Shown here: in pieces, positions 14,190 through 52,522 of the stretch
Layout: each line of letters starts with the position of its first letter
How positions within the stretch are numbered: position 1 is the first letter of the stretch
Source of the DNA: Moniliophthora roreri
Taxonomy: Eukaryota > Basidiomycota > Agaricomycetes > Agaricales > Marasmiaceae
DNA length: 64,000 nt
Assembly: GCA_001466705.2 (NCBI GenBank)
Contig: LATX02000205.1
Coordinates: 124,001-188,000 of the forward strand
Direction: 5' to 3'
Translations under genes and position numbers: made by a program
Notes under the pieces: generated by a model
The model's input: the letters and a program-made list of their open reading frames with translations, nothing else
Databases searched by the model: none
Told to the model about the DNA's origin: nothing

Positions 14190-15085
14190 AATTCTGCTGC
14201 AACCAGGCCGAAATCGAGCGTTGAACCACTAAAATCAGCCGGATTCAATGACCTCGACCAGGGCTCCAAGTCCAGTACCCTTTCAGTTTAGAAGAGAGAA
14301 TGGCTGTTCATAAATCCTGATGGTCTCAGTTCTGAGCATGTCGCTCCGTTTATGTGTCAGTGACCATCATTCCTACCGACACGCACTAACCTGTCGATAC
14401 TACAGGTGTCGGAGCGACGGTCCCTACACCCATTGATCATCGACTACGTCAAGCCCGTTGACTGGCCGCATAGGCATCGTAAGGAGTCCTTTTCGCTTAC
14501 CATGCACCTCAAGCTTAAATATATTCTAGATCGGGATCGGTGGCTTGGGTCATCTTGCAATCCAAGATGGAACGCGATGCCGGTGTCTTCCTCCAAATCC
14601 AAAAGAAAAGCAGCTCTCACCCTAAGTGCCTCCGAGCTCTACGCAACCAAAGGAGTAACCAATCTCACCGACCTGGCTATGGAAAAACCCGTCAAATATC
14701 TGTTACTCGCCAAAATCAGGATCAACTACCCACTGTTAGATAAACATGCGAAAACCCATTTGACGACGTATGTGACTGCTGGGGACTTGGTCGTTCTGCA
14801 TCCTGAGATACCATCAAGGGGGCCGGGTATCATTGGGACGAAGATTGGCTTGTGGTATATTGGCATGATCGTTCCGTTTGAGTGTGGTGATTGATAACGG
14901 GGCATATGGCTAGGAACAAGATGCTCGACTTTGCAGCGCGTAACAAGGTTGCGCCGTATATCGAACGATTCCCTTTGAGCGTGGATGGAACCCAGGCAGT
15001 AATCAAGAAGTTGCAGGATGGTACAATACGCTACCGTGGCGTGCTTGTCTATTCGGCTGGATTAAATGCACTTTTAATCCTATGA
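14190..15085 (+). pseudogene. Zinc alcohol dehydrogenase pseudogene (copy A)
   Basis: This is a degraded third copy of the dehydrogenases at 47.5 and 53 kb. Recognisable blocks in order are LDQGSK...REWLF.NPDGLSSEHVAPFMC (about 14250-14340), PLIIDYVKPVDW (14430), a damaged KMGCDVVVFSS region (14570), ALTLSASELYATKGVTNLTD (14620), KPVKYLLLAK (14690), DLVVLHPEIP..GPGIIGTKIG (14790), NKMLDFAARNKVAPYIERFP (14925) and YRGVLV (15035). The catalytic zinc-binding N-terminal exons are absent, the glycine-rich nucleotide-binding segment is destroyed, and frameshifts and a stop occur. It ends tail-to-tail with the VGRDQ gene, about 110 bp away. Confidence 0.85.
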
Positions 15086-15197: not shown

Positions 15198-17339
15198 TCA
15201 GCAGGCGGTACTTGAACCGAAAGTTGTTTCCCAGAACGAGTTTTTCTTTCGTTTATCTTTCTCCTGCTTACCTGGACAACCGCAAGAGCATCAGAAAAAA
15301 GGTGTAAGCATCAATGGATGAGTCGTAACTCACCCTGAAGGATCTCGAGATCAGGATATCCGAGCGAGCGAGCAAAATCTGTAGTTTTAGGATTAAAACC
15401 CCGGGCGATTTGCCAGTCGTGCAGAGCATCATAGACATATGAAGACCACGAATGAGCCCTTTCTACTCTTTCGTGTATATTCGGCGCAAGTGCGTATACT
15501 CCGAAACATTCAGCGAACCAGTCATATTCAGGGAATTCAATTTTGCCTGCTTCGTCAAACGACCAGAAGTGGGTGCGACCGTTTCTCCAAATCTCGAGGC
15601 CTCTGTCTGTCAAAGGATAGGGCAGTGGGTACACAAAGAGGTAGAGCGTTTTGGGCGGTGGGGGCAGCTTCTTCTGGCTGATGCTCTCGAGAGTTATAGC
15701 AGGCATGGACAGAGTGACTTGTAGTCGGGATAGATCAGCTCGATAGACGCCTCATCATAATAAAGAGGCTTACAATAATCTTCCAGTCTTACTGGGGCCG
15801 GTAAAGCGTTGAAGACCCTGGATGCTTGCGCTAGCCACGTCTGCGCAGCAAAGACACCATTGTTCCAGGAAGCGAACTTGACCTCAACACCATTTCCACT
15901 ATCATCAGGCTGGAATGTAAAGCTGGGTACCGTCAGCGTCATTGAAACCTGAAGGCCTTTCTTGGCTTACCGTGTCAAAATCCTGCCCTCGACTTCCATT
16001 TGCTTGCCATCAACGAGACCCCTTGAAGCACGCATGGTGTTGGCATCGGGATAACTTGGGTGTCTGGCAATCTCCATTCCTAAACGCGAGTAGACGGTGT
16101 CGAAGCGGAGTCCATGATGAATACGGCGATAGATTGAACGGTTGAGAAGATCATGAGGTCGGAGCAATCGCAATACACATTTCGTGAACTCGGGATGACT
16201 TTTGTCGCAAGGACACTCTCGGACGTACTCTCGCAGCATCTCGGCGTGGCTTACTACAGCGTAGTCGAAGCGATCTTTGTGGCTTTGGAAGAACTTGAGT
16301 GCAGTTTCCTTCTTGAGCATATCCATAGTTGTGGGCGTCGACGCTGTTAGCGGCCTACCAAATTTGTAGTTTTGGTAGTCTTGAAACAGTGGTAACGACA
16401 CATTAAGATCAGGCTGATCATGGCCAGGCGTGATCAAATTCCCGGTACTGACGTCGAGCCACAACTCAAGAACCGATAGGCCTAGAGTGGGGTTGTCATT
16501 CCACTGCCAGCGCCGCAGAACCTATACGGAGACTTGTAAGCTATCAAATCCAATTATGGATGGTGAAATGCGATGACCTCGCAAAACGTCAGGGAAAGAT
16601 AGCCCCAAAACATCATTTCAGGTATGAAATGCGAGACAGGTATCAGCTCTTTGATTCTTCATCAGCATCATGGTGTCGATCTGGAGTAGGCCTGCAACAC
16701 ACCATTGTAGAAGATCAGAGATGGAATAGATGACCGATTAATGCCAAAAAGTTGTGCCGCAGTATGATCTCTAAATATTCTTTCTTAGCAAGCAACGTTC
16801 AAATTATTTGATCCCTAGTGTAACTTACTGCAGTCGAGAACAGGCAGTAAAGTCCTTCTTCCACAACTGCGAAAACGTCAGAAAGGACTGAGGCCGTGAC
16901 GAAGCATTAGCGAACAGACCTTGTGAGCGTCCTGACCGCCGTAAGACACGGCAGTAAACCGTACCGCCGCTTTACCTTGAACTTCAACAGTGTGGATAGT
17001 TCTTTCACCTCGAAGAAAGGTCCTTTTCGAACCACCCTGTGTTTTGTTCCATACCAAATCCTCAACTTCGTTTGAGACGACCTTCTTCACGACGTACATA
17101 TCCCCCCGCCTGATGGTTTGAAACTGAATGATACCTAGCTCAATGAATGCCACGTATGATATAGAAACTGAGCTCACCTCGTTATAGTCCTCGCCTTCTG
17201 ATGTTCCCGTCGTTGTATCATGGATATGGACAACCTGAGCTGTAATGGAATGGGTTATATGATTGATCTGGTCTCTTCCCACGTTGTTTAACGTGCTTCC
17301 GCCACCGATGTGAATCATGGAAGAGTTTGAAATGCTCAT
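15198..17339 (-). CDS. VGRDQ-family protein, copy 1 (intact-looking, unknown function)
   Basis: A gene of roughly ten exons encoding about 500-550 residues. It starts with a Gly/Asn-rich N-terminus in which residues 18-26 read NNVGRDQIN, a motif shared with the NACHT protein at 52.5 kb. Conserved blocks follow: RRGDMYVVKK, TIHTVEVQGKAAVRFTAVSY, LIPVSHFIPEMM, LELWLDVSTGN, MDMLKKETALKFF, HGLRFDTVYSRLGMEIARHP, GNGVEVKFASWNNG, TLYLFVYPLPYPL and THFWSFDEAG, then ARSLGYPDLEILQGK. The tail is GSSTAC followed by a stop at 15198-15200. Frames join across short introns without a forced frameshift. I recognise it as an Agaricales-specific family without known function; no signal peptide or membrane segment is evident. 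It is divergent from copy 2 with about 550 bp between starts. Confidence 0.72.
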
Positions 17340-17889
17340 GTTGCTCTCAGAAGGTTGTCAGAAGGAGATGTTCGTGGTAGGAAGGCCAAACTGCTCGCTG
17401 GGCGATGGCACAGCTTTTCTTGACACTGACAGATTCGCTGTCAAACGTAGGAATAATTTTGTTGGACAGGCACGACCGTATATTCCCCCCAAGTGTCTTA
17501 TTGGTGGTTGCCTAGATTCCCTGAGCACACTCTCGGGTCCTGGGCAATTTGATACTTTGATTTTGTCCCCGGAATGTGGGTATTAGTCATTGCTTGGGCT
17601 TCCGAGCATTGGCCAAGGAAAGTCTACTGATGACCCGTCCCTGCGGTCCGAGTCCGGCGCCCAAGGAACGCGTCAGCTCCGCTGATACACGTGACCACGT
17701 CCGGAAGCTAGCTCATCTCAGAGTTACAGGAGACAGTGGACTTCAGGGAGCAATCAGAACCTCAAACCAGTACACTACTTAGTCCAGTCCACTCAGCAAT
17801 GTCAGCAATACTTACTCCATAACCTACGTACGTAAATCAGCACACACGTACGCCCGCAGAAACCGATAATTACGTCCCCCTTCTCTGGA
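17340..17889. promoter_or_regulatory. Shared intergenic region between divergent VGRDQ-family copies
   Basis: This 550-bp interval separates the start codon of copy 1 (minus, 17339) from that of copy 2 (plus, 17890), so it should hold both promoters. No clear TATA box or palindromic operator stands out. Open frames crossing it show no family resemblance. Confidence 0.4.
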
Positions 17890-19830
17890 ATGAGCATCGA
17901 AGATTTTCTATCATCGGCAACAACACTTTTAACCACGTTCTGGGAGACCAAGTGAATCATAACGTCTATTTGGTTCCAGAGAGTCCAGAGGTAGTAGAAC
18001 GTACCGAGGTCGGTGAGGTTCGTGTAACAGTGGCTTTGATCGTCGTCTGGTGCACTAACCAGAAGGTTTGGCAGTTTCGATATGTGAGACGTGGAGACAC
18101 GATCCTCGTGAAGGAGATACATTCTCGGGAGTTCTCAGAATGGGAATGGGAATGGCGAAATGGACTATATATTAAGATGTCGACTCAAGTCATCAGCACA
18201 GAGAACAGTCTACACTGTCGACATAGTGGACCGGCCATCGTCCAAGTTCATCGCTATGATCTACGAAGGGCAAAGACGCGAAGAGTTTTTGGGAGAAGGA
18301 TCTTCAACGGTTCTCGCTTGCCAAGTAGGCTCTTATCTGCCGCTCCGTAGCTCCGTAGCTGACAGATGGCCAGCAAACCTGGTTCGTTTCAACTACTTGG
18401 TATCAACCGGTCAAAAATCCCAGCACTGATATTTCACTACGGTAGAGCTCACCTTCTGTCTCCCTTGACGACACGTTCTAATGATACCCATAGAAATGAT
18501 TCCTTTCGCGCACTTTTTCAAAGAAGGATCCATTTGGAGGGATATTTACATTACAATTCTGATGGTCAGTCCGGATCCCTACCCGTATCTCAACTTCTTC
18601 AAGTTGAACTAAAACTGCGCTTCCAGCTTAGCATGAAGGAGAATTATGGATGAACACGACCAGCGGCGTGCTTTGCAAGGGGCCTCGTGGTCCTTCTGGC
18701 CCAAGTCTTCAGTCTGACTACTTCGGATCTATGAGGGACATGATTATCCCGCCCACCGTCGACATGCTGGAGAGCGACACTTCCTTCAGGTTCTTCAGCA
18801 AATTTGGGCCAAGATTGGACCATTGTGTGTTGTCCTATGCGCGCAGGCTTTGCAGTACCACCGATCTCGACGATATGTTTCCAGGGACAGCAGAAGATCA
18901 CCAATCCAACAATCCTGATGATCCCTCAGCGGTCTGCAATTCTTGGCAGAAACCACCCCGCCGCGTTCCGATGAATGTCATAGGCGGGCTTCGGTTTGAC
19001 ACCTTCTACTCATCGTCAATGGAGGCTGTTGCGAGGTGGCCAGAGGGAGCACATTCATTGTGGGAGTGGGAGGGTGCCGGCTATCGGAGCGAAAAAGTAC
19101 TTGATGGGGGGCTGACACGGTGAGTGATATTATAGTTTTTATGTTTGACTTGGACTCAGGGATTCACAGCTTGGAGTTGGATCCGAGTGACACCTTGTGG
19201 CTTCAACCTCGTTACAGTGGCTGGAGGCTGAATACCCGGTTATCACAACGCCATCGGGCTTTCAATGCTCTTGGTGTTACGGAGGGGAAAGAAGAATTCT
19301 GTACGTCCCCCATCCATTGGATTCATTAAAACTAACCTCTTCTTTCCCTTTCTAGTTCTCGTTCGTCTAAAGTTACCATCAGACACTCCAGAGATCCCAT
19401 CTACCTCTTCCTTCGTCCCCTCCCCATGTCAATACCGGAACTCGTATCTTGGATAGATAGGCCCTCCTACTTCTGGTCCCTTGACGAGACCGGTCAAACT
19501 CAAATGTCGGAGGAGGAACGTAGCAGGTGGGGGCTTCCGGTACTTACTTTACATGACCTCGGGAAATCTACCCGGCTATACACATTGTTTAATCGCGTCG
19601 ACATTGCCCTCCGAGATTGGTAAAAGGCTCAAGACTTCGATCCCACTACTTCTGAATGGGCGCAAGACATGAGTTATTCTGAGGTGGCGATTATTGGCAC
19701 AAGGAAGGATTCAGGTCAGTTTCCTCCTCGTATCAAATAATCTGAATTATGCCCTGACTGACTATTGTTTCCAGCAGGTTCGCGGCGGGAAACAATTGTG
19801 GGGTCAGGGATTAGCGCGATCTGTTGTTGA
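17890..19830 (+). pseudogene. VGRDQ-family copy 2 (broken)
   Basis: The same block order as copy 1 on the opposite strand: a variant motif TFNHVLGDQVNHN near 17925, RRGDTILVKE (18090), TVYTVDIVDRPSSKFIAMIY (18205), SKIPALIFHYG (18410), ELWMNTTSGVLCKGP (18645), TVDMLESDTSFRFF (18760), GGLRFDTFYSSSMEAVARWP (18985), PSYFWSLDETGQTQMSEEE (19470) and RLYTLFNRVDIALRDW. Breaks include a one-base loss in the T run near 17905 that puts the motif out of frame with the ATG at 17890. There is also an in-frame TAA straight after ALRDW at about 19621, plus damage near 18440-18640. The last exon still reads ETIVGSGISAICC and stops at 19828-19830. Confidence 0.8.
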
Positions 19831-20207: not shown

Positions 20208-22570
20208 CTACGCCGAGGGTGCCACTTGTCTGAACCAGACCTCAGCTCTCTCTTCAACAGAATCCCCGGTTGGATCTGGAACACCAGGAGTAGCGCCCCA
20301 GAAATTGCCGTTTAGCGCCATCCCAATCCCATCGTCAGTTTCAGCAAATTCCGCTTTGAAAGGACTGAGCCCCTTGGCCCAGAACGGTTGCTCCGGGTCG
20401 TTCGTGGGCTTAAAAACGGTGATCAGCACTCGACGCCAAGTAGACGAGAAACTCGGACACATACACTGCTGAGAATAGGCAAGCCATCAAATTTGTTACC
20501 GTCCGAATGCGCGAGTAGGATGTAGGAGCCGGCGACGATGGCATTTGATTTGGCCAAGAGTGTCGGAATGGTGAAATCAAATCCCGGGATGAACGTTGAA
20601 GCGTTTGCGGCAAGTTCACGACAAGACTCGGTCGCCTCCTCGCTAATGAGACAGAACGTCCAATTTCCGTATCCTGGATTGTTGTAAGTTCCAGCGAGAC
20701 TCGTCAATTCTATCGAGGGATCGGAGGTATTTGTTGGGAGGAATGAATTGTCGGCAGGGTTAGCATCACCTGTGCTATTTGAGACGTTCTTGTAGCTGAT
20801 AAGCGAAGATCAGTGCTGGTCAGGATTGAAGTAATCCAACTTACACTGAATTCCAGTCATACGGCTCAAGACCCAACGCCTCGTCAGTGAGACGATACCT
20901 GATGATATCTCTGATGGATTGGCCAACGTCCTCGTCGTTTGTCAAGACTGCGATCCCGACGTTGTCAGAAGGAAGACGAGTAACTTGGGTGTGAGCACCT
21001 GAAAAGCCGTTGAATTTTTAGAAGAATGACCACGAATGAAGGATAGTACGAACCGTAGGTATCGCCAGCGTGCTTTTGGAATCGATGTTAATACGTGCTA
21101 AGACAGCAAAATGAGTGAACCCACTTCAATGACATCTATGCATCCATGAAGTTCAAATCAAGTACTGAAAGACATCATGTAAAGAACTTACTATGACCTC
21201 GGTAAGAGTTCATCATTAGTCCCCCACCGTACACCGTCGGTGACAACACAGGTTGTGTAGGTAACGGGCTTTAGCGGGGAAAGTTAATAGTGCGCGCACA
21301 AGACCACAAGAAACTGAACACACATCGGGATTGTCACGCCTATAGCTAGTCTTTCCAAAACTTCCGTCGGAATGACTTGCTCACCGGTCTGCGGATGCTT
21401 CCCCCCCAAGAGAAGGGTTTGAAGCCAAATAGCCTGAGCAAGGCACATGAATACAACAGTTCGTGTAGTCACGTCGATCGGAAAACTCACCACGTCGTTT
21501 GCGCTGCTAATGACCCCACACGAACCAGCCATAACTGAGATATAGATACAGCCATCAGCTCTCATTTTCACCCGAATGGCACGTATAGCTCACCACTCCC
21601 ATCTTCGCCGCCCTCTTTGTACCAAAATGGCATGAACCTTGGAGTTCCTGTGCCAGGCAATCCAGTAGCCATGCTAAAATTCTCTCTAGCGATACCGTCT
21701 GCGAGATTTCCACTAGCATTTGCGACATCGAACGAGTACGTAGTTGTGTTCATTCCAAGGGCATCAAATATGTGTTGCTTAACATATCGCGCCAGAGTAG
21801 TCTTGGTGGATAAAACCTCGGGGAGATACGCCAAAACGTTGTACATGTGGTTGGTGTACTGCCAAGTCTGTAAAGTAGGAGATGAGGAAAGAAGCGCGAA
21901 TCCAGATGTAATAGCTATAACTCACGTCTCTGAATTCGGCAGAAGGCTTCAAAAACTTCATCCTTTCCATCTGGTGCACGTCAGCACCGTTCAAAGAAAC
22001 CCCAAAACGTCGACCACGTACCATCAAAGGAAGAGTATCACCTCGCTGATACATGTTATCATGCCGAGGAAGGCCAGTACGGTGACTCATTAGGTCAATG
22101 ATAGAAGCCTTCTCGGAGGCATACGAGTCCATTATTTCCCATTCTGGGATAACCGAAGCAATTTTCGTCGTCCAGTCAATCTTAGGCGTAACGCTCTCGT
22201 TCGAGACTAGCAGTCCGGTTGCAACCACGTTGAAAAGCTGAAAGCTGATGAGTACCGTGGAGGAGGAAAGGACAAAGACAAGACCGACCTTGGAGTTGGA
22301 ACAAATCGATAAAAGCGTGTCGGCCGTAAAGTTTGCCCCATCTTGTAACCTCGCGACTCCATAGCCCTTGGTCTCGACCTCCCATTCCCCAGAGCCTCCC
22401 AAGCGCACGGTGGCTACACTAACACCACCAGGTGTACCCCATTCCTTTAGCAAGTCCTGAATGAAGGTATCCACCTCCGATGAAAGGATTGGAGATGTCG
22501 AGGTGGAGTTCTGCGCAAAGACAGAACATAGGAAGAATAAGCTACCTGCGAGTGAGAATGAGATTCTCAT
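20208..22570 (-). CDS. Secreted beta-lactamase-fold serine hydrolase, copy 1
   Basis: A multi-exon gene starting with the signal peptide MRISFSLAGSLFFLCSVFAQ. The class C beta-lactamase/penicillin-binding-type SxxK motif is SNSK at residues 91-94, and the first intron falls directly after that Lys codon. Then follow a YTN motif in the exon holding HMYNVLAYLPEVL, GSCGVISSAND, GKHPQTGEQVIP, LSPTVYGGG, LPSDNVGIAVLTNDEDVG, and a C-terminal beta domain ending in VWFRQVAPSA. Family members (Pfam beta-lactamase, PF00144) act on amides and esters; the fungal substrate is unknown. Several N-glycosylation sequons fit secretion. It is about 65-75% similar by eye to the copy at 27.1 kb and lies in the same orientation. 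Confidence 0.83.
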
Positions 22571-24013
22571 TTCGGAGGCTTAGGACTGAGGATGATGAAT
22601 GACTGGCGAACCTTATATATCAGTCACGATTCAACACCTGAACAACTTGCACCCTAGTCATTGACTCCACCCTGAACTGCCATGCTAGCTGCCGAAGGAC
22701 GATTTCCGTGATGACCGTCGTTCGCGTAAGTAGATCAAATACTCGGGTAGCCTGATGGGTATCATTACCATTGGGCGGTTGGCTCGTGTGCGTTGGGACG
22801 AGTGGTTCTTTTTAATGTCAGACCTGAAAACTGACAGAGATATCAGAGTTAACTCCAGTGATAGAGGGAGAACACGTGCTGAAATTGAACAAGATTCATC
22901 TTTTCGACGAGCAGGCGACGCACTGAGAGTTTAAGACCTATCATGTGTGCCCATCCTGCCCATCACAATGACGCCTAAAGCTCCACAATTCGGTATTCAG
23001 ATGTCTAAGGCCCGGAGTACTAGTGGCTGCGTCGCTTCAATGAATACATGTACGTGCAAAGTGCGCTTCCTTGATCTAATATGACAAAAGGAATCGGAGA
23101 CGGAGAACCACGGGACCACTCACCTGGTCGTATTCTTCAATTTCCTGTGCTGTTTCTACCATGAATCTCGCCATTGAATGAAAGGAAATGAAAGATATTG
23201 TGCTTGTAGCCTCAAATTCTGACACAGGCTGAGGAAAACGCTGAAGAGCCGTGTCCCGGTCTTCGACGCGATACATAGTGTCAGGTGGAATGTTCTCCGG
23301 CGGTAAGCGCCCAAAGAAAGTGTTCTCTTCTCACCATCACGGTCTCTTCAGCCCGCCTTGAAAGCATTGGATGCCATTCGATGGATATTTAGACTGATAT
23401 TGGTATGTCTTATGCCCGCATTTTCGTGCGGATTCGACATTGCAAATCTAGAAGCCTTCAGTGGTTGTGGCAGAAATGGAATGGTCTTTAGGGTTTTATG
23501 GTATCCAAATCTGAATCTTGTACTTTCGCCTTCTTAAACGCCAACGATCGGCTCAAGCTCAGCTGCTAATGGACGTTAGAGTAGGCTATGGGATTCTGGT
23601 GCGTCTTGTTCGGTTCGATTCTGCATTCGACTCCGCGAGTCTGACTCCTTACTTTCGTTTCTCTAGATACTTAACAATGCAAACTGTACACTCAGTGATG
23701 CTATCAAGAGCTTTGAAAGGCAAATGACCCCAATCCCAGTTTTTCCGGCGGAATGTAACCCTCGACCCCAACCACCACTACTCTCTTGCCCTGCGCCTGG
23801 CGCTTGAAGATTTTCCTTGGCCCTCGAATACTGTATCGCAATATAGAATGTCGAATTATCGATCCTGTTATGCAAATCCCTATACGTCTATGAGTTCCGA
23901 GCCATAAAGTGCTTGACCGATACCATCGAAAGTTCCAGATCACGGTATACAATACTCAGACTCAACCAGCCACTTCTGTTGCCTCTATCCCCGAATTTGA
24001 GTCAAGAATCGAA
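22571..24013. other. Intergenic; left part belongs to a segmental duplication
   Basis: About 22570-23300 aligns with 29505-30190 upstream of the second beta-lactamase gene; for example, both carry a ..TATGACRAAAGGRAT.. segment near 23085 and 30085. Neither copy contains a convincing gene here. From 23300 to 24013 I see only short unrelated frames. Confidence 0.5.
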
Positions 24014-27136: not shown

Positions 27137-29505
27137 CTACGCCGATGGTGCTACCTGGCTAAACCAGACCTCAGCTCTCTCTCTAACAGAGTCCCCAGTT
27201 GGCTCTGGAAGACCAGGAGTAGCGCCCCAGAAATTGCCACTTATCGCCATCCCAATCCCATCATCGGTACTGGCAAATTCTGCCTTGAAAGAACCGAGGG
27301 ACTTGGCCCAGAATGGTTGCTCCGAGTCGTTTGTAGGCTTTGAAACGGTGATCAACACTCGACGCCAAGTAAATGAGAAACTCGAACACATACATTGCTG
27401 ATCAAAAGGAAGCCATCAAACTCGTTTCCGTCCGAGTGCATGAGAAGAACATAATCAGTAAGGACAGCGTCTAATTTGGCCACAAGGATAGGAACGGTGG
27501 GATCTATAAATCCGGGGAGATGTGTCGAAGCATTCGCAACAGATTCACGACATGATCCAGTCGTTTCCTCGCTAATGAGACAGAATGTCCAATTGCCATA
27601 ACCTGGATTGTTGTAAGTTCCGGCGAGGCGCGTCACCTCTATCGAGGGATCAGATGTATTTTGCGGGAGAGATGAATTATCTGCAGGAGCAACTCCTCCT
27701 GGAAGTTGATTCTTGTAGCTGATGAATGGGGATTAGCACGGGACAGCTTTAGGTTTTGAAGCAGTCTGACTCACAATGAATTCCAGTCATATGGCTCAAG
27801 GCCCAATGCTTCGTCAATGATGCGGTACTTGATGATCGCTCTGATGGATGGGCCAACGTCTTCATCATTCGTCAAGACCGCGACTCCGAGATTGTCAAAG
27901 GGAAGACGCGAAACTGTGGTGTGAGCGCCTAAGAATCCATGGTTTTCGTTAAGAGATATGTGGTTAGGAATGAAGAATGGTACCAACCCCAGAGATCGCC
28001 ATCGTGCTTTGAGGATCGAAATCAATACATGATACAAATGCAGCAGCTAAACAAGTAAACCCACTTCGACGACATCTACGAATCAATGTTCAGATTAAGT
28101 ATCGGAGAATATCGTGTACAGAACTTACAATGGCCTTGGTAAGAATTGGCCGTTTGTGCCCCACCGTAAACTGTTGGCGACAATACGGATTGCTGAGGTG
28201 ACGGGCTTTAAAAGGAAAAGTTAACGATGCACGTAAAACCATAAGAAAGAAACTGTACATACATCTCAACTGTCACACCTGAAGCTAGTATTCCCAGAAC
28301 TTCTGCGGGAATGACTTGCTCGCCGGTCTGTGGATGCTTGCCTCGCAAGAGAAGGGTTTGAAGCCAGATAGCCTGAACGAGTAATATGAATATAAGGATT
28401 CGTATAGTTGGATCGACTGAAGACCTCACCATGTCATTTGCGCTACTAATGACTCCACATGAGCCGGACATGACTATAAACGCAGGGCATGAGCTCCTTT
28501 CCCTACACGAAAACTAGTCATAGCTTACCATCTTCACCTCCAACTTTGAGCCGATGCGGCATGAACCTTGGCGTTCCAGTGCCAGGTAATCCAGCGGTTG
28601 CGTCAAAATTCTCTCTAGCGATACCGTCTGCAAGATTTCCACTGGCATTTGCAACGTCAAACGAGTACGTGCTTGCATTCATTCCAAGAGCGTCGAATAC
28701 ATGTTGCTTGACATATCGTGCCAGAGTGGTTTTTGTTGATAAAACCTCTGGGAGATACGCCAAAACATTATACATGTGGTTGGTGTACTGCCACGTCTGT
28801 AGAATAGAGGTCAGGAAAGAAAAACGAATCTAGAGGTTTTAACTCGCCTGCCTGAATTCGGCGGAGTAGTTCAAAAACTTCATCCTTTCCATCTGTTGTT
28901 GTATGTCAGCATTGTTCAAGGAAACATTGAAACATTGACCACGTACCATTGAAGGAATAGTGTCGCCTCGTCGGAACATGAATTCATGGCGAGGAAGACC
29001 AGTACGGTGACTCATCAAGTCAATGATAGAAGCCTTCTCGGACGCATACGAATCCATTATTTTCCATTCCGGAATAACCGAAGCGATTTTCGTCGCCCAG
29101 TTGATCTTGGGCGTAACGCTCTCGTTCGACATCAACAGCCCAGTTGCAACCACGTCGAAAAGCTACATCCCCAAGTGATGAATTCCCCCCAAAAAAGCAT
29201 AATAGAATGACGAGAAAACCAACCTTGGAGTTGGAACACATCGATAGAAGCGTGTCAGCCGTGAAATTTGTTCCGTCTTGCAATTTCGCAACTCCGTAGC
29301 CTTTGGTTTCGACCTGCCATTCCTCGGAGCTTCCCAAGCGCACGACGGCCACACTGACACCGCCGGGTGTACCCCATTCTTTCATCAAATCCTGAATGAA
29401 TATGTCAATTTTCGGAGAGAGGATTGGTGATGTTGAGGTCGAGTTCTGCGCAAGGACAGAAGGTAGCAAGAATAAGCCACCTGCGAGTGAGAGTAAGGTT
29501 CGCAT
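27137..29505 (-). CDS. Secreted beta-lactamase-fold serine hydrolase, copy 2
   Basis: Paralogue of the gene at 20.2 kb with the same exon order and the same ending (VWFSQVAPSA). The signal peptide MRTLLSLAGGLFLLPSVLAQ decides the start at 29505, although the frame stays open further upstream. SxxK is SNSK at residues 91-94, again with an intron directly after the Lys codon. YTN precedes HMYNVLAYLPEVL. Later blocks are GSCGVISSAND, LSPTVYGGA, LPFDNLGVAVLTNDEDVG and ALGLEPYDWNS. Intron positions agree with copy 1 throughout, so the two arose by duplication, about 6.95 kb apart, including about 0.7 kb of upstream DNA. No disabling change was found. Substrate unknown. Confidence 0.83.
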
Positions 29506-30919
29506 GTCGAAGGACTGAGGACGATGGGACTCACCTGAATGATCCTTGTGCAGCTTATGTACCAGTGACGATTGAGCGCCTGAAAGACCGTTGGACGAAG
29601 ACTCATCATTGTAACCAAATTGTAACTGCGTAAACAGCGGATGAAACTCCATTCTGATATGCCACGCTGGCTATTTATTTATTTCTGTTCCCCGCAATGA
29701 TCGTTGATTGCATGGATCAAGTTGTTGGAGTAGGATGTCTTTCACTGCAATTGGACGCGATTCCTGTATTCTTGTGCAGTACGAGTATTCTTGCATCCGA
29801 CTCTTAAGGTGGTCGAAAACCAGCAAAGATTGCGAAAGTCATGGCCAGACGCAGAAAGAGAGCGAATGCAGAAAATTTGAATCGTATTCAGAGCCGTATG
29901 TTTGACGAGCGGGCGACTCCGACTTGCATAAGTTGTTTTTTTTAAAAGAGTCCATCATGCGTTCCCAGCGCAAGGCGCTCCAAGCTCCACAGTTCAGAGT
30001 TCAAATAGGTCCAGAGTGACCGGAATCACCTTGTTTCTTCGATGAATATATATACCTGTGCAACATGCACCTTCTTGTTTTACTATGACGAAAGGGATGA
30101 GGAGAAGCGGGAACGGAGAACACGGGATAACCCATCTTGGTAGTCTTATTCTGTAGCGTTCTATCGTGAATGTTCACCGAGTGCGAAGGAGAATTGAAGG
30201 ATCTGGCGCTCGAATTCTGACCTTAGAAAACATCGAAGAGTTCATGTTCCGACCGGGTAGTGGAAGTTCCGGACTCGCAGTGTACAACATACAGTATCGT
30301 TTTCGCGGCTCCAGCTCGTCGACAGCAGGTTGAAAGTGTGGCTCAGGCTCGACCGAGGCTTCTGACAATGGTCGACATCAAGGCGAGAGTTTTGAGTTGC
30401 TCGTGGAAAAATGAGACCCGGACCAGGGATTGCCGCGCGCGGGGACCCAAGCGTTTCTTTCTCTCCTGCACTCGTGTCGACTGCATGATTTCATCAACTT
30501 TGACATGACACACCTTCTGCAGCCCTCCGAAACAAGTCAAATGAAGACATCTGGAATGGTCATTTTTGGCTCTTGGATGCAGCTTTTCAGGACATGACTC
30601 CGTAATTCCTCTCGTCAAACATTTTCATATCCGGTCGTATTCGCCTCCGGTCTCCCTCTCGGGAGCCTTCATGTGAAGCTGGTGCCACTCGGAATTGATT
30701 TTCGTCCGAATAACTCCCAAAATACACCACACACCTCATTCCTCTCATTCACGAGTCTTGCTGGTCGACGTAAAGTCGGTGTTCGGACAAGCGCAAATCG
30801 CTAGAGCTGGGGTTACGTCTTCCAGTCCTCCCTTCAACCCAGTTGAAGGTATATAACCTCGACCAAAGTACAACGAATTCCCATCCCACTAGCGGTTTCA
30901 CTTACAACATACGCCCACA
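29506..30919. other. Intergenic; right part of the segmental duplication and a promoter
   Basis: 29506-30190 is the second copy of the duplicated upstream segment. 30190-30840 shows no gene. The last 80 bp hold the TATA box and leader of the small secreted protein gene. Confidence 0.5.
30850..30856 (+). promoter_or_regulatory. TATA box of the small secreted protein gene
   Basis: TATATAA lies about 65-70 bp before the ATG at 30920. Similar TATATAA boxes precede the secreted protein loci at 34.7 kb and 39.8 kb and the gene at 62.0 kb, so this spacing is a local habit. Confidence 0.6.
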
Positions 30920-37083: not shown

Positions 37084-38272
37084 AAACAAGTTCATTTCTA
37101 GCTTTTGGATCAACATGAAGACCGGGAACTTGTGCTTTGGCCCTACTAAAGAGCTCTCGATCGCACATCTGAAGCGACACAAATGCTTAACTGGAGTGAC
37201 AGCACAATGATTCTTCCGATCATGGATATGCTCAAGCAAGATACTGCCATACGTTTCTTCAGCAGCCAGGGAATGCATCTTGATTCTAACATAGTCGCTC
37301 GTGCTATGATCTTACGAAAACTGTAACTGAAAACGAGGCTCTGCGACCGCGGGTTAGATAATATACAAACTTCGGACTACCTTCGGACCTGTTTCTTTCG
37401 GCACCTGGGACAGAGAATACGGTTTGACACCGTCTACTCGGGTTTAGGAGTTGGGATCGCCAGGTGCCCATCATAATGCGTGTGAGGTTACGGCCTTATA
37501 TAGCGGTTCGGAAAATCAAGTTTACGGAGTCAAGATGGGTCACCGAGGCCTGACACGGTGATTTGTCAGGAATGTACGTACCTTGAACTTTGACTATCGG
37601 CACTCGTAGATTTACATTAAACCCCAAAGGTCAAACATTACTATGACTGTATCTAGACGTTGTTGTTTGCAAGCAACTAGAATCCTCAGCAGGATCCCAG
37701 TGAAGCCGGAAGACTGTTGTAAGTTTTGAAAATCAAGATTTTCAAGCGACAGGAACTGATTCAATTTGACTAAAGCTGCAGTATGCCCGTTCCCAAGACT
37801 ATGTGGGCACGCCACCGTTCGAGAGGCCTGAAAAAGCCGTCGCGGACTATATATCTTTTTGTACACCCGCTACCCTACCCTTTGACCTTATGGACGCTAC
37901 AGAACTGGGCGAAAGGACGCAATCACTACTGGTCATTTGACGAAGCAGGCCAGAGCGAAATATCGGAAGGCGAATCGAGACGCCTTAGAATTCCCAAACT
38001 CATCCCAGACACCCAGTCATACTACATAGTTCAACGTTCAACGTCCACTTTGGCAATGGTGGCCAAACATTTATGATGCCCTCCGCGATTGGCAAGTTGC
38101 CCGCGGATTTCGCGCGTTCTCTCGGATATCCTGAGCTTGAAATCCTTCAAAGTAAGTCTCCTAGCTCCCATTGATCCTTTTATCTTGTCCTTATTGTGTT
38201 TTAGGCAAGCAAGAGACAGGCACGTTTTGGGAAACGAGTGCAGGCTCGGGCATAAGTGCATTTGCGTGCTGA
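37084..38272 (+). pseudogene. VGRDQ-family copy 3 (5'-truncated, broken)
   Basis: Blocks in order: WINMKTGNLCFGPTKELS (about 37110), MDMLKQDTAIRFF (37225), IRFDTVYSGLGVGIARCPS (37420), TIYLFVHPLPYPL (37845), GRNHYWSFDEAGQSEISEGE (37915), a frameshifted DALRDW region (38075) and FARSLGYPELEILQ (38105). The last exon after a short intron reads GKQETGTFWETSAGSGISAF and AC, stopping at 38270-38272. The N-terminal motif half is missing, and stops and frameshifts occur near 37320 and 37475. It is closer to copy 1 than to copy 2 in the LYLFV..PYPL and SLGYP.LEILQ blocks. Confidence 0.8.
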
Positions 38273-38806: not shown

Positions 38807-39707
38807 TTACAGACTGGATTCACCAACAGCATCACCAACCACCTTGCCCAGAGGTAAACCATCGAGTGGCGTATCGCGACCGAGCACACTCCCAACGACG
38901 GGTAAACCACCTACGGGTAGACTCTTGACCAAACCTTCTGCAGGCAGGCCATGGATTGCTGCATCACGACCGGCCAAACCACCGACAGGCAGACCTTTGA
39001 CCAGATTCCCGACAGGCAGACCCTTGGCCAAATTATCCACGGGCAGACCATTGACTGCTGCATCACGACCGGCCAAACTGCCAGCCACGGGTAGACCTTT
39101 TACCAGACCAGCTACAGGTAAGCCCTTGACCAAACCATCCACAGGTGTATTATTGATCGCCACATCACGACCAGTCAAACCACCCACAGGTAGACTGCCT
39201 GCCAGATTACCTACAGGCAGGCTATTGGTCACACTACCCAACGGTAGACCGTTGAGCAAACCACCGACGGCAGGCAGACCAGCGCCATTCGCATCACGAC
39301 CAGTCAAACCACCCACAGGTAGACTGCCTGCCAGATTACCCACAGGCAGGCTATTGGTCACACTACCCAACGGTAGACCATTGAGCAAACCACCCACGGC
39401 AGGCAGGCCAGCGCCATTCGCATCACGACCGGCCAATCCCCCACCTGCGAGATTGCCGACTTGACCGAGTACGCTACCAAGTACATCATCACCACCCACG
39501 GGCACAGGTATACCGTTGAGTGATGCACCGCTTGTATCAGATTGGCGACCGACCAGACCGTCGCAGTTGCTATTGCCTGGCCGTGTATCACATCGTAAGT
39601 ACTGTAATAAATGCCAGAAAGATGTAGAGAAACGTACCGGCGCATGACTTGGGGATGGGACTGGCGAAGACGAGAGGAAGGAAAATAAGAAGAGTTTTGA
39701 GTTGCAT
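38807..39707 (-). CDS. Secreted repeat protein with GRD-delimited units
   Basis: Two exons. Exon 1 gives the signal peptide MQLKTLLIFLPLVFASPIP and a KSCAG junction. Exon 2 starts NSNCDGLVGRQSD and continues as about 250 residues of imperfect repeats delimited by GRD: DANGAGLPAVGGLLNGLPLG, SVTNSLPVGNLAGSLPVGGL, then VKGLPV.. and AKGLPV.. units. It ends VVGDAVGESSL at 38807. One 44-residue unit is duplicated almost perfectly (132 bp, about 39165-39430). It has no recognised domain. Hydrophobic Leu/Val/Gly turns suggest an aggregating or wall-associated protein; single Arg sites at the unit borders could be processing points but are not the dibasic KEX2 type. Paralogous relics lie at 24-26 and 34.7 kb. 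Confidence 0.75.
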
Positions 39708-39805
39708 TGTGTTGTTTGGAATGAGCGTGTTGGGTTAAGGATCAGGAGTTGGAATTTGGGAACCACGGGTGGGTGGAGGGTTGAGGGTTGAGGCGACAGG
39801 TCGAT

Positions 39806-39815
39806 GTTATATACC
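39806..39815 (-). promoter_or_regulatory. TATA box of the GRD-repeat gene
   Basis: GGTATATAAC on the minus strand, about 100 bp before the start codon at 39707. Confidence 0.55.
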
Positions 39816-39903
39816 CATAGGATAGGAATGGAACTCGTTCGGATTAGATCTCAAGTTGTGGATAATATAGCTTGATATAGACAAAGCTTCAATTCCACGT
39901 TAA

Positions 39904-41587: not shown

Positions 41588-43311
41588 TTACTGTGAGGAA
41601 AGAACGTTTACATCGGTGTCAACGAGCCTGTTCCCACTAGTTTTAACTGAACGAGTAGTTTGGTGACCCTTGGGGTGAGGAGGACGGGGAAGGACGGTAG
41701 GAGGTTGAGGAATCTTTTCGACATGACGGGCTGCATCGACACCTTCAATTTCGATATCGCTCTTCACAGACTCGGTCGAACGAGCGGTCTTTTGACCCTT
41801 GGGATGAACGGGACGGAAGGTGGGAGGTTGAGGAAGTTCTTTAACATGATGGGCTGCATCGACTCCTTCAATTTCGACGTCGCTCTGCACGGTCTCGGTC
41901 GAACGAACGATCTTGTTACCCTTGAGATGAGCGGGACGGAAGGTAGGAGGTTGAGGGAGTTTGTGGGTTGCATCGGCTCCCTCAATTTCGACGTCGCTCT
42001 TCATAGACTCGGTCGAACGAGCGGCCTTTTGACCCTTGGGATGAACGGGACGGAAGGTAGGGGGTTGAGGAAGTTTTTTAACATGATGGGCTGCATCAAC
42101 TCCTTCAATTTCGACGTCGCTCTGCACGGACTCGGTCGAACGAACGACCTTATTACCCTTGGGATGAGCGGGACGGAAGGTAGGAGGTTGAGGGAGTTTG
42201 TGGGTTGCATCGGCTCCCTCAATTTCGATGTCGCTCTTCATAGACTCGGTCGAACGAGCGGCCTTTTGACCCTTGGGGTGAGGAGGACGGAAAGTCGGAG
42301 GTTGAGGGAGTTTTTCAACGTGATGAGCTGCATCGGCTCCTTCAATTTCGACGTCGTTCTTCACAGACTCAGTCGAACGAGCGGCCTTTTGACCCTTGGG
42401 GTGAGGAGGACGGAAAGTCGGAGGTTGAGGGAGTTTTTCAACGTGATGAGCTGCATCGGCTCCTTCAATTTCGATATCGCTCTTCACAGACTCGGTCGAA
42501 CGAGCGGCCTTTTGACCCTTGGGATGAGGAGGACGGAAGGTAGGAGGTTGAGGAAGTTTTTCAACATGATGGGCTGCATCGGCTCCTTCAATTTCGATAT
42601 CGCTCTTCACAGACTCGGTCGAACGAGCGGCATTTTGACCCTTGGGGTGAGGAGGACGGAAAGTCGGAGGTTGAGGTTTTTCGACATGGCGGGCTGCATC
42701 GACTCCTTCAATTTCGATATCGCTCTCCGTAGACCCGACTGAACGAGTGAGTTTGTTGCCCTTGGGGTGAGGAGGGCGGAAGGTCGGAGGTTGAGGGGGT
42801 TTTTCAACATGACGAGCTGCATCTACATCATTCTGCACAGACTCGACTGAACGAGTGGCTTTGGAACCTTTCGGGTGAGGGGGGTGAGGAGGGGTATGAT
42901 GGCGGTCGATAGCTTCGCCACAATCATCCAAGTCTAAATCACGATAATATGTCAATACAGTCGGGGGAAAAGCAAAAGAAGAGACCAAGAGAGAAACTTA
43001 CCGCATCCTGGCTCTGGCAACTCGTCATTGACTACACCGACTTCACGGAGCGAGATTCCATCACCGAGGATGTCGTTGACAACTCCTTCAGCAGTTCCCA
43101 TAGCATTGCCGATAGGGATTCTGTCAACTGGAATGGTGGAGCGACGTATGCCATCCGGTGAGCAGTCCCCAGCTACAACAGTGTCGTCAATACAAGGGTG
43201 GTCAGCGCAAAAAAGCAAAGAGATCTCACTGCACTCTGGCAGCCTGATGGGGCTGGCGAGGACCACAGCAGGTAAGAGAGAAAGGAGAGCGAGAATCCTT
43301 CTGAACTGCAT
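41588..43311 (-). CDS. Secreted PHPKG tandem-repeat protein
   Basis: Exon 1 encodes signal peptide MQFRRILALLSLLPAVVLAS and a short Cys-containing region (ECSEISLLFCADHPCIDD, GDCSPDG, PEPGCG). After a GTAAGT..TTTAG intron the frame continues from LDDCGEAIDRHH into about 440 residues made of 11 units. Each unit carries PTFRPPHPKG-x-K-x-x-RS and an acidic SDIEIEGADAAHHVEKLPQ half. Ordinary units are about 41 residues (123 bp); those ending DATHKLPQ are 38. The basic and acidic halves alternate, so the protein is a charge-patterned, probably disordered secreted polymer. It ends DTDVNVLSSQ at 41588. Function unknown; an adhesive, wall or effector role would be guesswork. Confidence 0.82.
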
Positions 43312-44787: not shown

Positions 44788-45384
44788 TTTGTGAAGTACT
44801 TGGATGGCGGCTTTGATGCTCGGGGATGGATGGAGAGAATTTGCGGTTGAGGTCGAGGCTAGTAGACGTCATATTGTAGCTCTCGATAGAATGATTCAGT
44901 TTCAAATTTCCATCGTTGAATGTCTAGAAAAACGAAAAAATAAATAGGGAATCAGACTCGTGGAGTTAAATGTTGAATCGACGCACCAAAACCTTATTAA
45001 CCGATCGTTTATGGTCAGACCGTCGGAGACGAAAATCCAGAAAGAAAGCTTTTAGGCTTGCCATGTATCAAACTGTCGACACCTAATGAAAGGTAAACGC
45101 AAAATGGGGTGTTAGAGTCAGACTTTTGGGGGCCGAAAATTTGTGGACAAGGCGCGTACCAATGCCTTCAAGGGACCAGTGCAAGGGGTCATGGTGGTGA
45201 AAAAAGAAAAACAGCCGTGAGAGCTTGTTTGGACGTTTGCCGGTTGCCGCTGAAGCACTCGCACTCTTCGACTTGTACTTAGTATCGCGTCGGACATGAA
45301 ATTAATGCCGCCAGAGCAGCGTCCTTTATTTCTTCTCGCGTCAGTGTCACCACAGAATGACGACTGATCACTTGGTGGGTTATC
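44788..45384. other. Intergenic, no gene seen
   Basis: Short unrelated frames only. Confidence 0.5.
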
Positions 45385-45784
45385 CCGTGTTCTCCCCTCC
45401 GATTCCCTCATGAGTAGTAGTGAATCGGAGAAAGGCTACTATGACACACTTGGCCTTTTGCCAATCTCGGAGGGCAGTGTCAATGTTGTTGGACCATGTA
45501 TACAACTGGACAGTGTCACTGATACTTAAAGTAAGCACCGGAAGCCATCGCCTATTATATTCCTCCTTTGACAGTTGAGTCTGACCAGTATAGTCAAGGG
45601 ACCAGAAGTAGGAGGGCCCCCACAACAAATCTGATGAGCCGGGGTACCCCAGCCGGCCCAACAGATATGACGGCTCGGGTGGGAACCAAAGGTGCATTGA
45701 AGGGTACAATGTGGAGTCATCCTCGCCACAGATCCTGTCCTTTACTCTTAACTCGGTTTCGCCTTCGTGCTGATGAGTTGTCAT
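45385..45784 (-). pseudogene. VGRDQ-family copy 4 (C-terminal fragment)
   Basis: Only the late blocks remain: a degraded LYPSMHLWFPP stretch where copies 1 and 3 have LYLFV.PLPYP, then GPSYFWSLDYTGQTQLSKEE, YNRRWLPVLTL and LYTWSNNIDTALRDWQKAK. The frame then slips, where copy 2 has DFDPTTSEWA. It is closest to copy 2 (PSYFWSLDETGQTQMSEEE). No upstream part is found, so this is a truncated relic. Confidence 0.75.
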
Positions 45785-46020
45785 TGATTCGTTAGCTGAT
45801 GGAGAGGATGGAGCTCAGCGGCACACAGTGACCAAGCCTTGAATTGTTGCATAGCTGGGCATTGCGTATGTCAGGGAAGTGGTTCAGGAAAGGAGCGCAG
45901 AGACCGTGGGTGGGCTGTAGATGATCGCGACGTAGCAACACATCTTCTATCAAGGCAAAAAAATTTCAATTCAACATTGCGATACGACTTTGATATGACC
46001 TTGACACGACCAGCTCTACG

Positions 46021-49919: not shown

Positions 49920-52522
49920 TCATGGGTTTTCACACTGGATCTTCCGCACCTGTTCAATTAGAGGAGATGTCCTCGAAGCGTATCTGGGTGGGAAGGACTA
50001 GAGTAACAAGTACCGAGCAGTCAGTACGTGCATAAAGTGGAGGTGTAGCATCGTACTCACATGCAACCACCTTGATAGATATTCTTGATCCATCTTGGAT
50101 TTAACTTTATGAAAGAGTGGAGGAAGTAAATCCAAACATTCAGAAGATGGCCCACAAATGTCCAACAATGTGCAGAGAGAATTTATCACAGAGGATCGAA
50201 CAACTAGACGGTGGGTATCGCTATCCAAGAACCAATCTCTAGGCGTCCGCATCATGATGGCGAGTAGCTTCCCTATTGCAACTGAGAGTTGAACATGGTA
50301 TACATCACCCGAAGTCGACCCATCAGAACATGGCAAAGACAAACGGGATGTACCCTCCTCATTTCGAGTACAACCACAATCATTTCCTGGTGAGACGACT
50401 TCAAAGGCTTGTTGGAATTTATCTGGAAGTCTGGTAGTCTGCGGTAGGAGCCCTCGTGATCGCAAGGTCAATAGCCAGTGAGTGTGGTTAGCAATTGGCA
50501 GACATCCTAAAATTTTGGCAGCCGTATCCAGAACGAGGGATATGACCTCTTTGGGGATGTCTTGCCGCGTAATTTTAATGCGAAAGCCTCTTCTGTAATC
50601 GGTGAGGCGTTGTATTATGTCGGTATGCCTGTGGTACGACACCTGGTTCTTTTACGAGTAGTTATTGCGCTGAAGAGCAGTAAGAGAACAGCAAACACAC
50701 CCGTAAGCGCTCCAGTAGTCTTTCAGTTTGATCAAAGAATATTAATATCAATTGACTGACGCGTTGAATGCCACTGGTCTCAGTGCTGAAGCCAGTGCTG
50801 GACAGCATTTCAATTCCTTGTTGAATATATGATCCGAGACTTCTCGTGAAATTGGCATTTCGAATAGCATCCAGGGTTTTATCGTCAAGGCTGCTCTTTG
50901 AGCAGCAAATTCCCCAGGTTCCCCATGCTCCGAAGAGAACATTGCGCCTAACCCAGTGCATCAAGATTCAATTATCGGACAATCAGCGCGTTTTGTAGCA
51001 TTCAAGACTCACTGTGCTTGGCTCAATCTCTCTTCGCGTCCTCCACAATTTTGAATGTGGTAGTCGATGGCGTGAAGGAGCCACCATGCGACGAAGCTAT
51101 GTTGGTCCTCTACGTTCCCAACGAAAAAGTAGCCGGAACGAATTTCATCACGGAGAGAGTCTTCGAATGACGCGTGAAGGATACGAATCTCGTCATCGGG
51201 ACCATCGATATGAAGAATAGAATGCATCCCACGCAGGGTTAAGAGAACTTCTCCTACAGGCAGCATTAACAATGCTTCCATGTTTCGTGGTGTCGGACGT
51301 GGTTCGCGGGGCCATATCTGTGGTGCCAATACAAGAACCCGAAGAATGTCTCGCAATTTTGAGCGATGAGGGTTGGTCGAGAGGATCTGATGATAGAGCG
51401 TATCTAGATCGTGGAATGGGGAACCCATGTCAGGGTCTGACAGGGATTTGGGACAGAGAACGATTTCCAGCCGTGCGCACGGATTGGCGTATTCGTTATC
51501 CACAAACTTAATGACTGTATCGGCATAAATAAATTGCCCAGACGCTTTCTGCACCAGTTCGTCGACGACACTGGGTGAAGGCCATAGATTTGGAAATTCG
51601 ATATGGCAATTACGGGGACTTCCGCGTATCCGTTTGAACTCACTGTTCAGAAAGATAGCGATGTCGCGGCCTACAGCAAACGTATCGTCCAAAGCAATTC
51701 GACGCAGATAGAGACGAAAGATTTCCGTGTTGAAGGATTCCCGAATGGATGGCTCGGGCCTACTGCATAGCAGGGTCCGGTAAGGCATCTTCTCTGACAG
51801 CGCAGTCGCCATTATAAAGAGAATACGTTGCTGTGCTGAACTCCCATTACACTCGTCTATGCCATCGATAACGAGAGTCCCTTGGTAATTTCGTGCCAGC
51901 TGAGGGAGTGATCTGCATGGTTCTAGAATTAGCTCCGCAAACTGGTTTTCGAGGGTGCCTTGTAATATAGCGGGATTTTTCCGAATGGCCCGCTCGATGG
52001 GTTCTCGAAGCTCTGGGATAGAATGTGCGAGTTGGTAGGCGATGGAGAGGAAAATGTATCTCGGATTGTTTCGCTTCGGATCCGCCCGTGAAAAGAAGAA
52101 ACTGGCCACAAGGATATTCTCCTCTCGGGCGGTCTGCGCTATTGTTTGGGCGATGGCCGATTTTCCAGCACCCGCTGGGCCATACAGCCATAACATGCGA
52201 TCTGAGGGTGAGGTACTGTGAATCCAGTCAAGGAGCAGCTTCAGAACATCCTGACGTGTGTCTGGATGGCATTGGGGTTGCGGGTACCGTGTTTCGGAAT
52301 CATAACTTGCGCCAACATCTTTGACTTCCTCGTAGAGATCGTGAAAAGTCGCAGCTAGATACAGCTGATCAGATCGAGTGAAAGCCGCTCTGAGTCGATA
52401 GGATATGACTTACGCTTACGATCTGTCAAGTGGTAGTGTGTAGTGGTGTTGTTAATCTGATCCCGACCAACATTGTTGAATTGCCCGCCGGAAATATTAA
52501 GGCCTTGAGCATCGGAAAACAT
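49920..52522 (-). CDS. NACHT-type NLR-like NTPase with N-terminal VGRDQ motif
   Basis: Begins MFSDAQGLNISGGQFNNVGR, and residues 16-24 are NNVGRDQIN. A short linker follows. The NACHT domain has Walker A GPAGAGKS at residues 95-102, FFFSRADPKRNNP (which differs from copy to copy in the family), Walker B GTLVIDGIDEC, a sensor-like LLCSRPEP, and the winged-helix part ASGQFIYADTVIKFVDN and LRVLVLAPQIWP...VLLTLRGMHSIL....ILHASFEDSL. The C-terminus (about 50650-49920) is helical without WD, ankyrin or TPR repeats. A last intron (GTGAGT, TACTGAC, CTCTAG) gives the end RKIQCENP at 49920-49922; without it the frame ends at 49998. These proteins are fungal innate-immunity/incompatibility-type STAND NTPases. 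It lies between two dehydrogenase copies. Confidence 0.85.

Follow-up and report, generated by a model that had tools for sequence, protein, structure and literature searches.

A short N-terminal module shared by NACHT proteins and a kinase-like protein family of Moniliophthora roreri as a candidate homotypic signalling unit

Within a 64,000-nucleotide stretch of the genome of the cacao-rotting mushroom Moniliophthora roreri (contig LATX02000205.1, positions 124,001 to 188,000, part of an assembly of 59.4 Mb in 154 contigs; the whole stretch is referred to as the window), a NOD-like receptor (NLR)-like gene with a NACHT domain and a member of a second gene family (copy 1) encode proteins whose N-termini hold the same nine residues, NNVGRDQIN. 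What is such a shared N-terminus for? An earlier note on this DNA named the second family the VGRDQ proteins and proposed that they could be signalling partners or decoys of NACHT proteins. We report here that the nine residues belong to a module carried by most of the NACHT proteins examined, by two subfamilies of kinase-like proteins, and by several other proteins. The best explanation, in which we place moderate confidence, is a homotypic signalling module linking NACHT NLRs and the kinase-like proteins.

The N-terminal module in NACHT and kinase-like proteins

The two genes contain the following features.

52451..52477, minus strand: shared-module core NNVGRDQIN of the NACHT protein (sequence and DNA-pattern scan)
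52420..52522, minus strand: first-exon start of the NACHT gene, containing the N-terminal module (sequence; 3' boundary approximate)
51009..52409, minus strand: open frame of the NLR-like gene with the NPHP3_N / NACHT domain (domain matches)
17262..17288, minus strand: NNVGRDQIN core of the shared module in copy 1 (sequence and DNA-pattern scan)
17250..17339, minus strand: N-terminal module, first 30 codons of copy 1 (sequence)
15311..17339, minus strand: copy 1, a kinase-like family gene (collinear with member P0004; splice sites modelled in part)

The NACHT protein starts at 52522 with MFSDAQGLNISGGQFNNVGRDQINN... and has NNVGRDQIN at residues 16-24; in copy 1, which begins at 17339 with MSISNSSMIHIGGGSTLNNVGRDQINH..., the nine residues occupy positions 18-26. 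GG precedes the core in both, as previously noted, and the turn is longer by one residue in copy 1. The open frame behind the NACHT start matches NPHP3_N (E 3e-29) and NACHT (E 4.3e-12). The core lies within a module of about 25 residues, M-F-x-N-[AS]-x-x-F-x-I-x-G-G-x-F-N-N-V-x-[GR]-D-Q-x-N, found in a short first exon in both NACHT and kinase-like genes. By hand arithmetic, two 40-residue N-termini would share a nine-residue identity by chance about 1e-8 times.

Profiles were built from 45 NACHT N-termini (window gene included) and from the 56 of 62 kinase-like rows with enough residues, with the first Met removed. Alignment of the two with hhalign gave a probability of 96.9 and a score of 35.8 over 24 columns with one gap in the turn, compared with a mean of 7.8 (standard deviation 2.0, maximum 16.4) for 200 column-shuffled profiles and 8.1 for a reversed profile. 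When a hidden Markov model (HMM) of the NACHT motif was run on 93 kinase-like N-termini, 51 reached 3 bits or more and 34 reached 5 bits or more; among the reversed N-termini these counts were 1/93 and 0/93. Other 60-residue pieces of the kinase-like proteins reached 3 bits in 7 of 707 cases, mostly the module itself in proteins with too-early annotated starts. A strict pattern found the module at 52 of 69 genomic matches to exon 2 of the family. At the level of sequence, the case for a shared module is firm.

On the NACHT side, PF24883 gave 115 rows in the M. roreri genome, merged to 106 places. The sample consisted of the window gene, ten first exons flagged by the strict pattern, and the upstream stretches of the best 40 of 103 unflagged rows (63 were outside the sample). 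The module was seen by eye in an ATG-started frame upstream of 34 of the 40 unflagged genes, and was not seen in the other six stretches (L091, L103, L117, L118, L124, L127), so that 45 of 51 NACHT genes examined carry it, and all 45 carry it at the very N-terminus, the position described for motifs of Agaricomycete NLRs. Three hydrophobic residues followed by a G[DN] pair can be recognized by eye in part of the NACHT alignment, and RD replaces GD in many rows.

The module is under tighter selection than the linker that follows. Among distinct first exons of two length classes (30 and 14 exons), the ratio of nonsynonymous to synonymous substitution (dN/dS) was 0.17 and 0.25 in motif codons and 0.42 and 0.74 in the linker, an approximate contrast because synonymous sites are near saturation and the linker codons were compared without gap alignment. 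Mean column entropy was lowest in the motif core (1.25 bits), followed by the kinase-like part (1.56), the region behind that part (1.64), and the linker (1.89).

The kinase-like family

The name VGRDQ protein, taken from the earlier note, covers the first exons only of a much longer gene; the full product is not small but a kinase-like protein of about 560 residues. Blocks downstream of the 153-residue frame of copy 1 are kept between family copies, and copy 1 is collinear with P0004 at 17126-16605, 16464-15802, and 15658-15338; comparison with member P0003 points to a 54-base in-frame intron in copy 1. Copy 1 has at least 86 matches in the M. roreri assembly at E 1e-3 or better, a lower bound since 150 of 166 candidates were scored. 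The gene model of an intact member (locus L047, protein P0004) has eight exons and seven GT-AG introns of 50-61 bases and encodes 560 residues, identical to WG66_012784 of M. roreri. A database search with this protein returned 91 proteins at E 0.01 or better: WG66_012784, 84 others from M. roreri or M. perniciosa, three from Paramarasmius palmivorus, and one each from Collybiopsis confluens, Favolaschia claudopus, and Mycena epipterygia.

Three further copies lie in the window.

17892..19827, plus strand: copy 2, head to head with copy 1 (genome matches)
17925..17963, plus strand: motif variant TFNHVLGDQVNHN in copy 2 (open frame 17823-18350)
37103..38266, plus strand: third copy, a degraded fragment (genome matches)
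45383..45814, minus strand: fourth copy, a C-terminal fragment (genome matches)

Copy 2 looks broken, because the frame at 17823-18350 has no Met ahead of the motif and the C-terminal block contains an in-frame stop; it keeps the variant motif, in agreement with the earlier reading.

Pfam appears blind to the members tested: there was no match for P0004 up to E 10, the best match among 62 scanned members was no better than E 0.013, and NCBIfam gave no match for the two members tested. The predicted structure of a family member has the kinase fold, and a kinase-like fold is well supported by this model; the C-terminal part of the protein gave no convincing match. Across residues 150-215 Asp frequency peaks at 0.41, and 76% of members keep D222 (the register to real kinases is approximate); the family is probably without catalysis. 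A second subfamily was delimited from its first exon: at a cutoff of E 1 this exon has 44 genome matches, of which 27 remain at a cutoff of 1e-3. Similarity between the exons of this subfamily and the subfamily 1 profile is weak (E 2e-4 to 0.4) but collinear, and 0 of 404 shuffled frames matched the kinase-like HMM at E 1. In one protein, P0078, DUF6593 (precomputed annotation) stands ahead of an internal module copy and a kinase-like body, representing either a fusion or two joined gene predictions.

Other carriers and neighbouring features

The DNA pattern N[VI]Gx[DN]Q occurs at 60 genome sites (19 for the backward-read pattern), 11 ahead of NACHT genes, 7 in matches of the VGRDQ family, and 42 elsewhere. 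N-terminal context was found in 8 of 11 inspected sites of the last class, of which three belong to the second kinase-like subfamily and two more are subfamily 1 genes (L088). The pattern GGxFxNV occurs at 83 sites (22 read backwards), and the module was seen in 11 of 12 inspected sites outside the earlier lists. Of these carriers, L139, L140, L143, L144, and L147 form one small family by eye; L138, L141, and L142 form another, in which L142 has a sub-threshold match to the ubiquitin-like ULD_2 (E 0.007); the others are L145 (subfamily 2), L137, and L146. An in-frame Met is nearby in nine of them, and L141 is interrupted directly behind the core. Two further bodies were found behind the module. 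The gene start at L080 (1-786) contains it (MFNASRDFDINGGAFNNVGRDQVNN), and a hydrophobic stretch at the C-terminus of a later frame might serve as a membrane anchor, making L080 a candidate membrane-bound partner. L081 and L082 have a different body (RIGDVGIV...FDYLFN[VI]C) behind a module variant, and the L082 frame has no match in Pfam. For nine loci among the other carriers, the match to the kinase-like HMM is confined to its motif part. As all these carriers were picked by motif patterns and short body stretches were seen, they indicate breadth, not frequency.

Among the findings that could overturn its proposal, the note had listed a motif at the start of many unrelated housekeeping proteins and N-terminal exons that are untranslated. 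The carriers seen belong to multi-copy or unnamed families and none was recognized as housekeeping in the part of the motif sites inspected, and the exons are translated.

Other features of the window are as follows. Two nearly identical dehydrogenase-like exons lie at 47669-48058 (minus strand, with an ADH_zinc_N match) and 53154-53543 (minus strand, immediately upstream of the NACHT gene), and a third, degraded copy lies at 14364-14894 (plus strand); the three represent a segmental duplication. A long frame at 41588-42997 (minus strand) contains tandem repeats of the type PQPPTFRPPHPKGQKAARSTESVKSDIEIEGADAAHHVEKL, and a frame at 38807-39850 (minus strand) contains a second repeat type, GLPVGGLTGRD and relatives. 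A putative secreted protein is present in two similar copies, 20423-22579 and 27352-29670 (minus strand), with a hydrophobic start followed by AQNSTSTSPILS.

A signalling module, its alternatives, and known systems

We propose that the module may be a homologous N-terminal signalling unit of about 25 residues, consisting of a strand, a Gly-rich turn, a strand, and a [GR][DN]Q cap, and carried on a flexible tail. A triggered NLR would oligomerize via its NACHT domain and bring many tails together; the gathered tails would template a homotypic beta-arch (amyloid-like) assembly, which would recruit the motif-bearing kinase-like proteins as scaffold or output. A tag shared in this way suggests a docking code between sensors and partners, and it is from the sequences that we infer the homotypic assembly, the partnership, the direction of signalling, the lack of catalysis, and a possible immune or allorecognition role. 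Of the original idea of signalling partners, the motif stands as real, N-terminal in 45 of 51 NACHT genes and in a second large family, and resembling amyloid-like motifs of Agaricomycete NLRs; the pairing is not exclusive, as other carriers exist. More tentatively, and with some doubt on our part, an orphan mushroom NLR motif could be the recruiting code of a genome-wide homotypic network, in which most of about 100 NACHT sensors, more than 100 kinase-like proteins of two subfamilies, and several others would carry it N-terminally, with the kinase-like proteins as a main and so far unseen output of Agaricomycete NLRs, in an independent arrangement reminiscent of RHIM kinases.

Several results weigh against the signalling explanation. 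In the HMM comparison, 59 of 93 kinase-like N-termini stayed under 5 bits, partly annotations without the true N-terminus and partly true members with a longer turn, and shuffled N-termini reached 3 bits in 41 of 1860 cases and 5 bits in 11 of 1860, with a best score of 10.0. Most subfamily 1 rows carry one residue more in the turn than the NACHT proteins. Across species the motif letters are no better conserved than the body: the core of P0004 shares 7/16 residues with P0086, 6/17 with P0087, and 3/17 with P0091, and its kinase-like part shares 79/174, 87/191, and 51/181, respectively. Foldseek TM-scores to kinases are low (query-normalized 0.15-0.20, target-normalized 0.26-0.36), the tail of the kinase-like protein has no predicted structure in the model, and two Lys columns are conserved (K62 in 92%, K104 in 89%), so that the kinase-like proteins may still bind nucleotides. 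The module is N-terminal in both NACHT and kinase-like proteins, whereas partners in known fungal pairs carry it at the C-terminus. In M. roreri itself BaMLKL is another candidate output (PMC9815663). Finally, the earlier note had named a lack of excess co-occurrence with NACHT genes as a refuting outcome, and for gene neighbourhood no excess was found: 2 of 84 subfamily 1 loci lie within 10 kb of a NACHT gene (rotated mean 2.4, p 0.55). This null was obtained by rotation over contigs of 42.3 Mb placed by known extent or by last match plus 2 kb, with the remainder as one empty block. With both subfamilies pooled, 4 of 110 loci lie within 10 kb (mean 3.2) and 14 within 50 kb (mean 12.2, p 0.38). 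Compared with random rotation, NACHT and kinase-like genes show no clustering, and they are not adjacent in the manner of fungal NLR/partner pairs.

This lack of clustering would also suit a common N-terminal address or stability tag, perhaps exon-shuffled, whose carriers share a destination or turnover and do not bind one another. The short first exon in both kinds of gene and the several proteins with different-looking bodies would be in keeping with such a tag, which we consider rather improbable. To our knowledge, import signals do not resemble a strand-turn-strand pattern in which Gly, Asn, and Gln are conserved, which would count against such a tag. The NLR motifs of the NLR05/08/22/29/44 class, to which the module probably belongs, were moreover selected with a grammar derived from amyloid signalling motifs of bacteria (PMC9815663).

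The turn raises another alternative, which appears unlikely, in which a single code is common to the NACHT proteins, subfamily 2 of the kinase-like proteins, and the GGxFNNV proteins, and the longer-turn subfamily 1 interacts with itself only. Besides the one-residue insertion in most subfamily 1 rows, subfamily 2 has the NACHT turn spacing and a higher profile score (45.7 compared with 35.8, most of its 12 sequences having been chosen by motif patterns), and, taken by itself, it shows a weak tendency to lie nearer to NACHT genes (8 of 26 within 50 kb against a rotated mean of 2.8; p 0.045 in one of 12 tests). This division is opposed by subfamily 1 members, copy 1 included, that match the NACHT proteins over the whole nine-residue core and by the short turn of the kinase-like protein P0086; given the turn difference, separate channels are conceivable, with subfamily 2 closer to the NACHT code. 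Coincidence between Gly/Asn-rich N-termini of similar composition might be suspected in so short a stretch with much N, G, and S. It is highly improbable in view of the residue- and column-shuffled controls, the excess of GGxFxNV sites over the backward reading, and the failure of all shuffled frames to match the kinase-like HMM, and these controls refute it unless a hidden bias is common to them.

How does the homotypic signalling module compare with known systems? Wojciechowski et al. 2022 (PMC9815663) surveyed the N-termini of fungal NLRs and described 16 amyloid-like motifs there. With 689 sequences, NLR05/08/22/29/44 is the largest group; it is usually at the very terminus and is basidiomycete-specific except for a dozen NLR22 hits overlapping the sigma motif of ascomycetes. 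Like our module, it stands at the extreme N-terminus of short-N-terminus Agaricomycete NLRs, in dozens per genome, with a core of about 25 residues; its hydrophobic positions and G[DN] pair recur by eye in part of the NACHT alignment. The NLR-side motif has very probably been catalogued already, an identity drawn from the description and not from the letters. In M. roreri MCA 2997, that study also reported an 18-residue motif that 26 NACHT proteins carry N-terminally and two BaMLKL proteins C-terminally; the species and the location on NACHT N-termini agree with the present case and the partner differs. The BaMLKL proteins of M. roreri were looked for here and not found. The earlier note had taken the pairing to be undescribed as far as it knew; the NLR-side motif is very probably not new, and a motif of M. 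roreri NACHT proteins had already been paired with BaMLKL. In that study partners were sought in the C-termini of known effectors and of neighbouring genes, and its Table 1 lists zero neighbouring and zero effector C-termini for this group; its accessible text does not mention N-terminal carriers outside NLRs, with "kinase" appearing twice and in the reference list only. An N-terminal, unlinked partner would explain these misses, and the kinase-like family delimited here would be a concrete candidate partner for the 689-sequence group. In the literature outside most subscription journals and bioRxiv preprints, we found no paper on a mushroom kinase-like family with an NLR motif.

The ascomycete pairs HET-S/NWD2, sigma, PP, and PUASM likewise have a short motif on the NLR N-terminus and on separate proteins, but there the partner motif is C-terminal and the genes are often adjacent (as described in PMC9815663), whereas here the motif is N-terminal, the genes are unlinked, and the body is kinase-like. 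HELL domains have been described in proteins with kinase or pseudokinase domains (PMC12881547). The present family differs from the canonical protein kinase fold in the lack of Pfam matches better than E 0.013 and of NCBIfam matches in the members tested, and, in an approximate register, in its low Asp frequency in residues 150-215. Compared by description, the RHIM of RIPK1/RIPK3 is also a short motif on kinase proteins and forms amyloid there; RIPK3 phosphorylates MLKL, whereas catalysis is doubtful in the M. roreri family. If the proposed module acts as we suggest, NLR amyloid signalling would be tied to kinase-like proteins outside animals.
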